This document shows positions 47,440-51,121 of a stretch of DNA of 64,000 nt, piece after piece. Source of the stretch: an uncultured Clostridia bacterium (GTDB lineage Bacteria; Bacillota; Clostridia; Christensenellales; UBA1750); assembly GCA_904393115.1 (NCBI GenBank), contig CAJFMX010000003.1:1-64000 (forward strand), given 5' to 3'. A program made the position numbers and the translations under genes. The notes under the pieces were generated by a model, which was given only the letters and a program-made list of their open reading frames with translations, was not told where the DNA came from and did no database searches. The number at the start of each line of letters is the position of its first letter. The stretch's first letter is position 1.

Positions 47440-48315
47440 ATGAGCGAAAAAAAGATGATTTCCGTTTTGCAGACCTATGACGTCACCACCGGCGAGCGGA
47501 AGGTGCTGCGCCGCTTCGACGAGCACATCGAGGCGCCCAACTGGGGCATGGACGGCACCTTCCTCGTCTACAATTCCCAGGGGCACATCTTCCGCTACGA
47601 CCTGCAGAGCGGGGAGAGCGCGCAGATCGACACCGGGATCTGCACCCGCTGCAACAACGACCACGTCCTCTCCTTTGACGGCAAGTGGATCGGCATCTCC
47701 TCCGGCGTGGACGGGGACGGCGCCTCCCGCGTGTGGACCGTGCCGCTGACCGGCGGCCAGCCCAAGCAGATCACGCCGCTCAAGCCCTCCTACCTGCACG
47801 GCATCTCCCCGGACGGCAAGACCCTCGCCTACTGCGCGGAGCGGAACGGCAACTTCGACGTCTACACGCGCAGCGCCGACGGCACGGGCGAGGAGACGCG
47901 CCTCACCACCGCCGAGGGCCTGGACGACGGCCCGGAGTTCTCCCCCTGCGGGACGTATATCTGGTTCAACTCCGTGCGCAGCGGGCTGATGCAGGCCTTC
48001 CGCATGAAGGCGGACGGCTCCGAGCAGACCCAGATGACGGACGACGACCGCAACAACTGGTTCCCGCACGTCTCCCCCGACGGAAAGCAGGTCGTCTTCG
48101 TATCCTATTATAAGGACGACGTCGCCCCGGGCGACCACCCGGCCAACAAGAACATCTGCATCCGCAGGATGTCCGCCGAGGGCGGCCCGATCGAGACGCT
48201 CATCGCGACCGATCCGGAAAAGGGCGAGAAGGGCGGCCAGGGCACCATGAACGTCAACTCCTGGTCCCCGGACAGCCGGAAGTTTGCCTTCGTCACCTAC
48301 GTATTCGAGGATTGA
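47440..48315 (+). CDS. TolB/WD40-like beta-propeller protein
   Basis: A 291-residue propeller. Repeated blades include SPDGKTLAYCAER, FSPCGTYIWFNS, VSPDGKQVVFVSYY and WSPDSRKFAFVTY, the PD40/TolB pattern. It lacks a signal peptide, so it is cytoplasmic. AAGGATCGG lies before ATG 47440. Related proteins in Firmicutes accompany carbohydrate enzymes; with the VOC gene it may take part in metabolism of an unknown small molecule. Confidence 0.85.
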   Translation: MSEKKMISVLQTYDVTTGERKVLRRFDEHIEAPNWGMDGTFLVYNSQGHIFRYDLQSGESAQIDTGICTRCNNDHVLSFDGKWIGISSGVDGDGASRVWTVPLTGGQPKQITPLKPSYLHGISPDGKTLAYCAERNGNFDVYTRSADGTGEETRLTTAEGLDDGPEFSPCGTYIWFNSVRSGLMQAFRMKADGSEQTQMTDDDRNNWFPHVSPDGKQVVFVSYYKDDVAPGDHPANKNICIRRMSAEGGPIETLIATDPEKGEKGGQGTMNVNSWSPDSRKFAFVTYVFED

Positions 48316-48395: not shown

Positions 48396-48521
48396 TTGAC
48401 AGATGCTTTGGAAGATGATACGATAAACTCGTAAAGAATTTGTTACCGATTCATGAATGACCGCGGCTTCCGAACAGGCTCTTTTCCCCGCGAAAAGAGC
48501 CGGGGAGGCCGTTTTCTTTTT
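48396..48521 (+). ncRNA. Candidate small RNA
   Basis: TTGACA (48396-48401) and TACGAT (48419-48424) with a 17-bp spacer form a good promoter. About 25 nt into the transcript a long hairpin begins: GGCTCTTTTC pairs with GAAAAGAGCC, extended outside by CGGCTTCC with GGGGAGGCCG, and then TTTTCTTTTT. The unit would be roughly 90 nt and carries no supported gene. Transcription is inferred. Confidence 0.45.
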
Positions 48522-48620
48522 GGGATGAAAAAAATGGAAGCGAAAAGGGGAAGAAGAAGGAATTACTGCGCAAGTGTGTCTATAAACGCATTATACTCGA
48601 TTAAAAAAAACAAAAAGATG

Positions 48621-48649
48621 TTGAAATGAGAAATAAAGAATGATATACT
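48621..48649 (+). promoter_or_regulatory. Promoter of the membrane-protein pair
   Basis: TTGAAA (48621-48626) and TATACT (48644-48649) with a 17-bp spacer, and TGA as an extended -10. Confidence 0.75.
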
Positions 48650-48740: not shown

Positions 48741-49576
48741 ATGCTGCAAAATCGCAGACTCTCTTTGGCGGTCGGCGGCGCGCTGCTGACGGTCCTGTGG
48801 CTCCTGGGCCTGGGCTGTACGCAGGTCTCGCTCCTGCGCGAGGACAGCATGGGAATCCCGGAGTTCTACAACGTGACCTGGATTCCCTGGCTGGTGCTGG
48901 GGCTGGCGGCGATGGGGTGCCTGGCGTGCTCAAGCCCCTGCCCAAGGAAAGCCCCTGGGACTACGCGCCTGCGCTGGCGCTGGGCCTGGCCCTGTGCATC
49001 GGCACGAGCTCGCCGCTGCTGTGGGCGGCGTTCGACCCGGGGTGGTGGAACGTGCCGCACACTTGGACATTCCTTTACGCGCTCTATGCGGCGGCGTTTG
49101 CGTATCTGCTGCTGCGGGGGGAGACGCGCGGCCTGCGCTTTGACGGGAAGCGGGCGCTGCTGCTGGTTGGGCTGCTGGCGCTGGCCTACGCGCCGCGGCT
49201 GCTGTCCGAAGCGGCTGATTGGATCGGCGGGAATCTGATTTCCGCGAACAACACATCGCCCTATCGCGTGGCGGGGTGGATCGCCTCGGCGCTGTTCCTG
49301 CTGGGCGGGGCGATGGCGCTGCTCGTGGCGCGGCGGGGCCGGCGGGGCGCGGGCGCGTTTCTGGTGATCCTGGCGGCGGTCTGCCTGATCCTGTACCTGC
49401 TGGTGGCGTACAACGTCCTGCCCTACGGCTGGCCGGAAAGCGAATGGCCGCTGGTCCTGCGCATCCTGAAGACGCGCTTCTACGACGGGCTGCTGACGAC
49501 CAACAGCATGTCCGCCTACGGTTTTGTACTCTTTGCGGGCCTCAAGTGCCTGCTGCCGGAAAAGGAGGGAAGATAG
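48741..49576 (+). pseudogene. Frameshifted membrane protein, paralog of the next gene
   Basis: ATG 48741 follows GGAGGAGGAAAA. The first frame matches the N-terminus of the next gene (signal-like segment ending GLGC, then TWIPWLVLGLAAMGCLA) until about 48927. There 10 bases are missing relative to the paralog, and similarity continues in another frame (KPLPKESPWDYAPALALGL onward) to TAG 49574-49576. The 3' 300 nt are nearly identical to the paralog. As read it would give a truncated protein of 165 residues. Confidence 0.85.
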
Positions 49577-50416
49577 ATGAAGGGAACGGTTTGGAGGAGA
49601 GGCGCCGGCGGGGCGGCATTGGCGCTGCTGCTGGTGTTCGGCCTGGGCTGCATGAACGTGACGCTCATCCGTACAGTGGAAGATCTTTGGTTCACGGAGC
49701 TCTATCACGTGACGTGGATTCCCTGGCTGGTCATGGGCCTGGCGGTGATCGGGTGCCTGGCGCTGCTGGGCGCGCTGCGGCCGCTGAAGATGCAGAGCCC
49801 GTGGAACTACGCGCCGGCGCTGGTCCTGGGTCTGATCCTGTGCATCGGCACGAGCTCGCCCCTGGTGTGGATCGAGTTCGACTCTTCCCGCTGGAACGTT
49901 CCGTACACGCTGGTGTTCGTCTACGCACTGTTTGCGGTGGAGTTTGTGCGGCTGCTGCTGCGCGCAGAGGCGCGGGGGACGCCGTTTGCCTGGAAGGAGG
50001 CGGCGAAGCTGGTCGGCCTGCTGGCGCTGGCGTATGCGCCGGCGCTGCTGTCCCAAGGCGTCTACTGGCTCGTGGACAACGTGATCCCGCAGCGCTCCAC
50101 GCTACCCATCCGTGTGGCGGGATGGATCACCTCGGCGCTGTTCCTGCTGGGTGGGGCGATGGGGCTGGCCGTCGCGCGGCGGGGCCGGCGGGGCGCGGGC
50201 GCGTTTCTGGTGATCCTGACGGTGGTCTGCCTGGCCCTGTACCTGCTGGTGGCGTACAACGTCCTGCCCTACGGCTGGCCGGAAAGTGAATGGCCGCTGG
50301 TCCTGCGCATCCTGAAGACGCGCTTCTACGACGGGTTGCTGCTGACCAACAGCATGTCCGCCTACGGCTTTGTGCTCTTCGCGGGCATCAAGTGCCTGCT
50401 GCCGGAAAAGCGGTAG
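49577..50416 (+). CDS. Multi-pass membrane protein of unknown function
   Basis: A 279-residue protein with about seven hydrophobic segments. The N-terminus ALALLLVFGLGC resembles a lipobox, although the following segments suggest that it is simply the first membrane span. VTWIPWLVMGLAVIGCLALLG, RVAGWITSALFLLGGAMGLAVARRG and FYDGLLLTNSMSAYGFVLF are shared with the preceding pseudogene. No known family is recognised. AGGAGGGAAGATAG provides the ribosome site. It is the intact copy of a tandem duplication. Confidence 0.8.
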   Translation: MKGTVWRRGAGGAALALLLVFGLGCMNVTLIRTVEDLWFTELYHVTWIPWLVMGLAVIGCLALLGALRPLKMQSPWNYAPALVLGLILCIGTSSPLVWIEFDSSRWNVPYTLVFVYALFAVEFVRLLLRAEARGTPFAWKEAAKLVGLLALAYAPALLSQGVYWLVDNVIPQRSTLPIRVAGWITSALFLLGGAMGLAVARRGRRGAGAFLVILTVVCLALYLLVAYNVLPYGWPESEWPLVLRILKTRFYDGLLLTNSMSAYGFVLFAGIKCLLPEKR

Positions 50417-50433: not shown

Positions 50434-50471
50434 CCCGCCCCCGGTTGATCCGCCGGGGGCGGGCGTTTTTT
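50434..50471 (+). terminator. Terminator after the membrane-protein pair
   Basis: CCCGCCCCCGG and CCGGGGGCGGG form an 11-bp stem followed by CGTTTTTT. Confidence 0.93.
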
Positions 50472-50812
50472 GGTGGTCGAATCCCGCGTGCGGCACACAC
50501 GGCGGCGTGTAAAGGTCCGCAAAAGGAGAAGCCGGGAAACTCCGCAAAATTTTCTTTGTGAAAGTTGTGTAAAACGCAAATTTCCTCTTGCGCGGAGCGG
50601 GGGTGCGGGTGTATACTACAGAAGTTGCCGCATGGGATGAAGCGGGAAGTTGCTGGCTTGGCCGCCAGGTAATTCTCGTGGACCGGTCCGCAAGACGGAC
50701 GCCGAACTCATTCCTTCCCTTCGGAAGATTGGGGGACGCTGCGCCGAAAAGAATTTTCTTGCGGCACACACGGCGCGGTGTATATGAGTTCCACCTGCAA
50801 GGAGGGTAAAAC
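50472..50812 (+). promoter_or_regulatory. Promoter and leader of the S10 ribosomal operon
   Basis: TTGCGC (50588-50593) and TATACT (50612-50617) with an 18-bp spacer point to a start near 50624 and an untranslated leader of about 190 nt. Such leaders often fold into a site for a ribosomal protein (autoregulation); this role is inferred. TGCGGCACACACGGCG occurs twice, at 50489-50504 and 50760-50775, the second inside the leader near its 3' end. Confidence 0.6.
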
Positions 50813-51121
50813 ATGGCCAATCAGAAGATCCGTATCAAGCTCAAGGCGTATGAGCACACCCTGATCGATCAGTCGGCAGAGCGCATTGTGGAGACGGCGA
50901 AGCGCACCGGCGCCCGCGTTTCCGGCCCGATTCCGCTCCCCACCGAGAAGGAAGTCGTCACCATCCTGCGCGCGACCCACAAGTACAAGGACTCCCGCGA
51001 GCAGTTCGAGATGCGCACGCACAAGCGCCTGATCGACATCCTCTCGCCCACCCCCAAGACGGTGGATGCCCTGATGCGGCTGGATCTGCCCGCCGGCGTT
51101 GATATCGAGATCAAGCTCTAA
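50813..51121 (+). CDS. rpsJ: 30S ribosomal protein S10
   Basis: 102 residues, full length. [25 protein letters not shown] and the hairpin loop region [19 protein letters not shown] are diagnostic. First gene of the S10 operon; besides its role in the small subunit head it is NusE, a transcription antitermination factor. AAGGAGGGTAAAAC precedes the ATG. Confidence 0.98.

Follow-up and report, generated by a model that had tools for sequence, protein, structure and literature searches.

Two tandem membrane-protein genes (copy A, upstream, and copy B, downstream) in an uncultured Clostridia bacterium have very probably reached their present form by gene conversion from A into B together with decay of A, within a tandem pair that is old. 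This reading builds on the mosaic of the two copies, for which a direction can be given, on the lesion in A, on the native sequence that follows B and on the single or broken copies found in relatives, all of them features of the genome sequences compared. According to the proposed history, A and B would descend from an old tandem duplication of a gene whose polytopic membrane protein has no name. Once the lineage had separated from its sister species G003, about 250 nt (about 380 nt at most) from the back of A would have been copied into B by homologous recombination, leaving B as a hybrid with its own front, an A-type back and its own 3' flank. Copy A would have lost 10 nt, apparently through a slippage deletion, and would remain as a pseudogene or encode at most a truncated protein. 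The mechanism as such is known: gene conversion and decay of an ordinary kind, in a family of genes that changes fast. All coordinates refer to the window, that is, the whole 64,000-nt stretch analysed (assembly GCA_904393115.1, contig CAJFMX010000003.1, positions 1 to 64,000), and the features are collected in Table 1.

Table 1. Features of the tandem pair and its immediate surroundings in the window.
Feature	Coordinates	Strand	Basis
Promoter-like site (TTGAAA, 17 nt, TATACT), 5' of copy A	48621-48649	+	consensus match only
Copy A, frame of its own ATG (48741); exits the homologous frame after ~62 codons, stop at 49238	48741-49238	+	
Site at which copy A lacks 10 nt present in copy B (gap junction); B has there a GGCG direct repeat (4 nt), 10 nt apart	48924-48929	+	repeat by eye
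Copy A, homologous frame past the lesion, 216 codons from GTG, stop-free	48926-49576	+	ORF list
Putative donor tract in copy A, matching the converted core of B	49268-49521	+	B coordinates minus 846
Shine-Dalgarno-like AAAGGAGGG of copy B, within the final codons of A	49561-49569	+	by eye
Copy B, intact; polytopic membrane protein of 279 aa with 6 hydrophobic stretches above the threshold used	49577-50416	+	
Putative converted core in copy B, 15 differences from A over 254 nt; outer bounds ~50032 to stop	50114-50367	+	
Terminator-like hairpin 3' of copy B	50434-50463	+	pattern match

The pair is flanked by a propeller-repeat (TolB-like) gene at 47440-48315, in which a Pfam scan finds PD40 repeats, and by the S10 ribosomal operon, with the gene that we take to be S10 at 50813 (the ribosomal gene names are presumed). 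The stop codon of A (49574-49576) directly adjoins the ATG of B, and since the Shine-Dalgarno-like sequence of B sits in the last codons of A, the ribosome site of B is independent of the frame in which A is read. Promoter-like sites number three in the region against a shuffle mean of 0.5, and four terminator-like sites were found against 2.7 expected from shuffles.

An earlier sequence-only reading of this DNA had described nearly identical 3' ends and clearly different 5' parts in the two copies, and this contrast was confirmed by alignment. The final 300 nt (49265-49564 versus 50111-50410) align without gaps and are 93% identical, with 20 differing sites (9 synonymous and 11 non-synonymous), whereas the preceding 300 nt of A are 72% identical to B. 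A maximum-chi-square scan placed the switch at 50114 (49268 in A), with 108 differences in the 350 nt before it and 19 in the 297 nt after it, and none of 2000 permutations gave an equally strong breakpoint. Across the switch, dS between A and B falls from 0.605 to 0.113 and non-synonymous divergence from 0.333 to 0.053; as both kinds of divergence fall, the cause is to be sought at the DNA level. As expected of gene conversion, a tract of high identity lies beside diverged sequence, and it does so at synonymous sites too.

The sister species G003 harbors a single intact copy at this site (L004, which covers the stretch also labelled L007, contig CALWKN010000170.1), and the direction of the exchange was read against this one orthologue, with one genome per species. 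Amino acid identities for the pairs A-B, B-G003 and A-G003 are 0.48, 0.85 and 0.50 in the N-terminal region, 0.65, 0.74 and 0.54 in the middle region, 0.91, 0.47 and 0.47 in region C1, and 0.91, 0.46 and 0.46 in region C2. In the same way, dS between B and G003 is 0.625 in the front and 1.50 in the back, and that between A and G003 is 1.21 and 1.31, respectively. To the left of the best split (50032), B sides with G003 alone at 92 sites and with A alone at 51, and to the right of it at 17 and 151 sites, respectively; within the core (50114-50367), 122 sites link it to A alone and 3 to G003 alone. The distance of A from G003 hardly changes along its whole length while B departs from its orthologue in the tract, which makes A the donor and B the recipient; overwriting of A by B would have left the back part of B similar to G003. 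It had been proposed that equal divergence of both copies from a relative along their length would speak against conversion; in the relative compared, G003 only, A is even and B switches, and the conversion claim withstood the comparison. The sister species thereby separates donor from recipient, so that the locus offers a clear, polarised case of conversion.

The tract is bounded on both sides, on the left by the breakpoint scan and on the right by the native flank, although its exact right edge inside the gene appears soft: B remains A-like up to 50365, and between 50368 and the stop 3 sites favour G003 alone and 2 favour A alone. The 3' flank of B aligns to the flank of G003 with a local score of 190, where the best of 50 shuffles reached 15, and what follows the stop of B is this native flank and not a further copy start as after A; the two-codon extension of A is also absent from B. 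With a native flank behind B and no further copy, the flanks would have stayed unexchanged, barring loss of a third copy. Five neighbouring genes compared between the window species and G003 show dS values of 0.20 to 0.86, against which the tract dS of 0.11 indicates an event that postdates the species split and yet is not recent. The changes in the core that could be polarised on G003 (about 6 events on B and 3 on A, counted by hand) are too few to fix the timing. Additionally, the middle region is patchy, with A-like runs of 8 and 11 sites amid G003-like ones, so that more than one event is likely, including earlier small tracts. The front part of B and G003 shows a dN/dS of 0.19, which indicates that the B lineage is constrained.

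The direct-repeat spacing of A and B is 836 ahead of the lesion and 846 past it, which means that A is short of 10 nt relative to B. A 10-base loss near 48927 that puts A out of frame had already been proposed from the letters, and it was found again as a gap at about 48926, with the start-codon frame ending at 49238. The loss looks like a slippage deletion, given the direct repeat that B carries at the lesion position; copy A would now be a pseudogene, and its homologous frame past the lesion would yield at most a truncated product. The lesion is presumably carried by the living strain and not a product of assembly or of a strain mixture, and the order in which conversion and lesion are placed in the history above is likewise the presumed one. 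A may have been functional until lately, which the dN/dS of the A-B tract (0.47, from 20 substitutions) neither proves nor excludes.

Several other explanations were weighed against conversion between the neighbours. The A-type back part could have come into B from another strain and not from the chromosomal neighbour, as would suit a core with 94% identity to A instead of 100%; no match closer than A was listed in the searches (made with the whole protein or its profiles), and such an origin appears rather unlikely, the donor presumably being A itself and not an A-type allele of a relative. A hybrid made by unequal crossing-over or by recent partial duplication is improbable. Their adjacent position and direct orientation, and a right edge of the tract that is unsharp within the gene, would suit such an origin, but B is followed by its native flank with no copy start after it, so that a third copy would have had to be lost later; unequal crossing-over is thus unlikely. 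Recent partial duplication, by contrast, is rejected, as both copies are full length, the split of A and B, by identity to G003, is older than that of B and G003, and the tract dS is 0.113 against 0.625 for the front of B and G003. The sequence-only reading had left gene conversion and recent partial duplication side by side; the former is upheld by the mosaic relative to G003 and the direction from A into B, and the latter falls on the full length of both copies. An assembly artefact, in which the lesion or the mosaic would be a chimaera, might be suspected from the 62 contigs into which the window genome is split and from the record of G003, whose title calls it a metagenome assembly. However, the longest exact match between A and B is 51 nt, the tract has 20 substitutions of its own, so that the copies were kept apart, and the lesion shows the anatomy of a slippage deletion; an artefact is accordingly given little probability.

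Phase variation, in which slippage or recombination would toggle copy A, had also been suggested, and A is indeed broken with a stop-free homologous frame past the lesion, in a pair of copies between which exchange did occur. We consider it very improbable. By eye, the lesion is without homopolymer or short tandem repeat, being a 10-nt loss beside a 4-nt direct repeat, and neither a slippage-prone repeat nor an invertible or recombining segment with a recombinase was recognised; no recombinase is conspicuous, again by eye only, among the ORFs listed for 43-56 kb. Seven inverted pairs occur in 3 kb, two of which (15 and 12 nt) have distant arms on either side of the lesion, likely by chance. 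Additionally, the lesions in the orthologues of G002 and G004 differ in kind and place, and with lesions elsewhere and of other kinds in these sister species and no simple repeat at the one in A, the suggestion of a switch was not sustained. The orthologue at the S10 site carries an in-frame TAG in G002 and a frameshift after about codon 202 in G004, where the exported-protein gene upstream is seemingly out of frame at the signal peptide. G001 lacks a gene of this kind in the interval from S10 to the propeller gene, and G006, which belongs to another genus, possesses an intact member at the S10 site. Across 11 genomes of the taxonomic family, 3 of the 6 copies at this site are broken, each differently, which looks like decay and not like a conserved switch. 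Another lone member, orthologous between the window genome (G000) and G003, is intact in both, with a dN/dS of 0.45 against 0.12 for its neighbour. Strong protein constraint on the back part of both copies, for which 41 of 49 aligned sites identical among A, B and G003 from 50368 to the stop might be cited, has next to no chance of explaining the 3' likeness and is ruled out by the dS contrast, as synonymous divergence between A and B also falls about five-fold and the divergence of B from its orthologue rises in the back part instead of falling.

The membrane protein belongs to a family that was traced by searches of widening scope. Within the genus, a match was found in 4 of 5 genomes, the window's own included; stepwise profiles at the level of the order found members in 4 of 297 genomes and then in 7 of 396 (six of the taxonomic family, the seventh weak), and the wider profiles reached 8 of the 11 genomes of the taxonomic family, where the single-protein query had given 4 of 11. 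An initial view of the gene as restricted to the genus was therefore wrong. At the level of the class, the membrane profile matched in 5 of 291 genomes, namely the window's own and four weak ones. The supposition of two family members on contig G000:C4 was also wrong, since the upstream membrane gene there (L039:2681-3559) has no profile match. Further members in the window genome are cut or fragmentary (L058 1-701 on G000:C51, and L082 on G000:C37). Contig C51 starts inside a member, so that the assembly breaks at a family member, and that member lies beside a gene (L058:939-1946) that we take to be mutarotase-like and that is a relative of L040:6872-7879, which flanks a cassette of the family in G002.

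Searches of Pfam, NCBIfam and solved structures gave no trustworthy match for the membrane or the exported proteins. The best Pfam matches of the membrane members (Acyl_transf_3, E 0.00011, and 7TMR-DISM_7TM, E 0.00043, in 2 of 17 members each) lie below the curated cut-offs where these are printed and probably reflect shared hydrophobicity. PADLOC, applied to the 17 membrane members only, matched one of them to NsnC (E 0.0043), and an AlphaFold model of B (three sequences) has a mean pLDDT of 46.9. No relative was found in viral contigs. The family lacks a description in the libraries searched, which is not a claim of its absence from print.

In G002 and G004, the member at the S10 site lies directly 3' of a gene for an exported protein. 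A profile of the exported protein gave 12 matches among 200 genomes of the order; they fall in 4 genomes, each of the taxonomic family (11 genomes), and a membrane-gene match adjoins the exported gene in 12 of 12, a pairing for which the profiles were partly trained on those same loci. At the loci outside the training set, a matching ORF was found beside the exported gene in 6 of 6 (E 2e-19 to 3e-4). None of the other ORFs fell below E 0.44 at eight loci with 61 ORFs, and only family members fell below 0.19 among 304 ORFs from the window and eight loci. Conversely, the membrane gene stands without an exported gene at 14 of the 25 distinct loci examined, some of them at contig ends (G004:C6:4154 was left out). 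Among the matches of the taxonomic family, the exported gene is thus always beside a membrane gene while the membrane gene also occurs alone, as expected of a toxin and its immunity protein, a pattern that also fits other partner systems. The profile search found no exported gene in G000 or G003. At the level of the class, the exported profile matched in 2 of 391 genomes; neither match has a membrane gene as partner, and these two genes outside the order argue against strict pairing. They are distant relatives of the exported protein from other families of the class (L073 1300-2064 and L074 1192-2094). In G002, the family cassette is duplicated in tandem (L040 4073-6673): an exported gene that lacks a clear signal peptide comes first, then a membrane gene, then a 3' piece of an exported gene and finally another membrane gene.

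Regarding function, an immunity-like or partner-protein role is put forward as a tentative working idea, suggested by members that in some relatives come after a gene for an exported protein and in G000 occur by themselves. Immunity in particular is possible but short of likely; it is suggested by an exported gene that never occurs without a membrane gene in the taxonomic-family matches and by genes that are tandem, converting, decaying and fast-changing. The same facts fit an exported protein with a processing or anchoring partner. More specifically, and again with doubt, A and B might be orphan members of an undescribed cassette of a secreted antagonist in Clostridia, made of an exported protein of ~200-250 aa and a membrane immunity protein, in which genomes devoid of the exported gene would reshuffle the membrane gene by conversion into hybrid specificities.

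The evolution of the pair plausibly resembles that of orphan immunity genes. In the accessible part of one account of T7SS immunity genes in Firmicutes, recombination is described between tandem paralogues of esaG and of tipC, and little recombination for tsaI, of the DUF443 membrane family (PMC9484751). Shared with that part of the account are tandem paralogues in a Firmicute, mosaics that arose when neighbours exchanged sequence, a disrupted copy alongside intact ones and retention by lineages that lack the partner gene; the strings described there reach up to a dozen genes, whereas two copies are present here (PMC9484751). Unlike those immunity families, copy B matches no Pfam family, and DUF443 (TsaI) is absent among the 10 families, each in 1 or 2 members, that a Pfam scan of 17 members listed at E <=0.1. 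As in the concerted evolution of prokaryotic paralogues, so far as the accessible text of PMC6053082 describes it, paralogues are closer to each other than to their orthologues, here over part of their length, but the process seen here is partial, one-directional and known from one lineage and not long-lasting (PMC6053082). The larger worth of the locus is that it exposes a two-gene cassette that evolves fast, is often broken and occurs mainly in a single taxonomic family; the distribution of its partners yields a testable prediction on function.

Two observations concern the sequence around the pair. A second promoter-like site (TTGACA, 17 nt, TACGAT), followed by a stable hairpin (z -3.2) and a T-run, occupies 48396-48524, 5' of the promoter-like site of copy A, and its first hexamer and T-run are also conserved in the G003 stretch (L007); none of the three listed Rfam matches falls in this interval, which is possibly a small RNA or an attenuator. 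Downstream of copy B, a match to the S10-Clostridia ribosomal leader was found at 50629-50705, below threshold (26.6 bits versus 35.1, E 0.011), and the leader region is bracketed by a 15-nt word, GCGGCACACACGGCG, at 50490-50504 and 50761-50775. This word occurs twice genome-wide at up to 1 mismatch, as does its reversed control word, and in the window it has 2 matches at up to 2 mismatches, a number that 16 of 100 shuffles also reach. Words that resemble it were seen by eye near the S10 gene in L005, L006 and L007.
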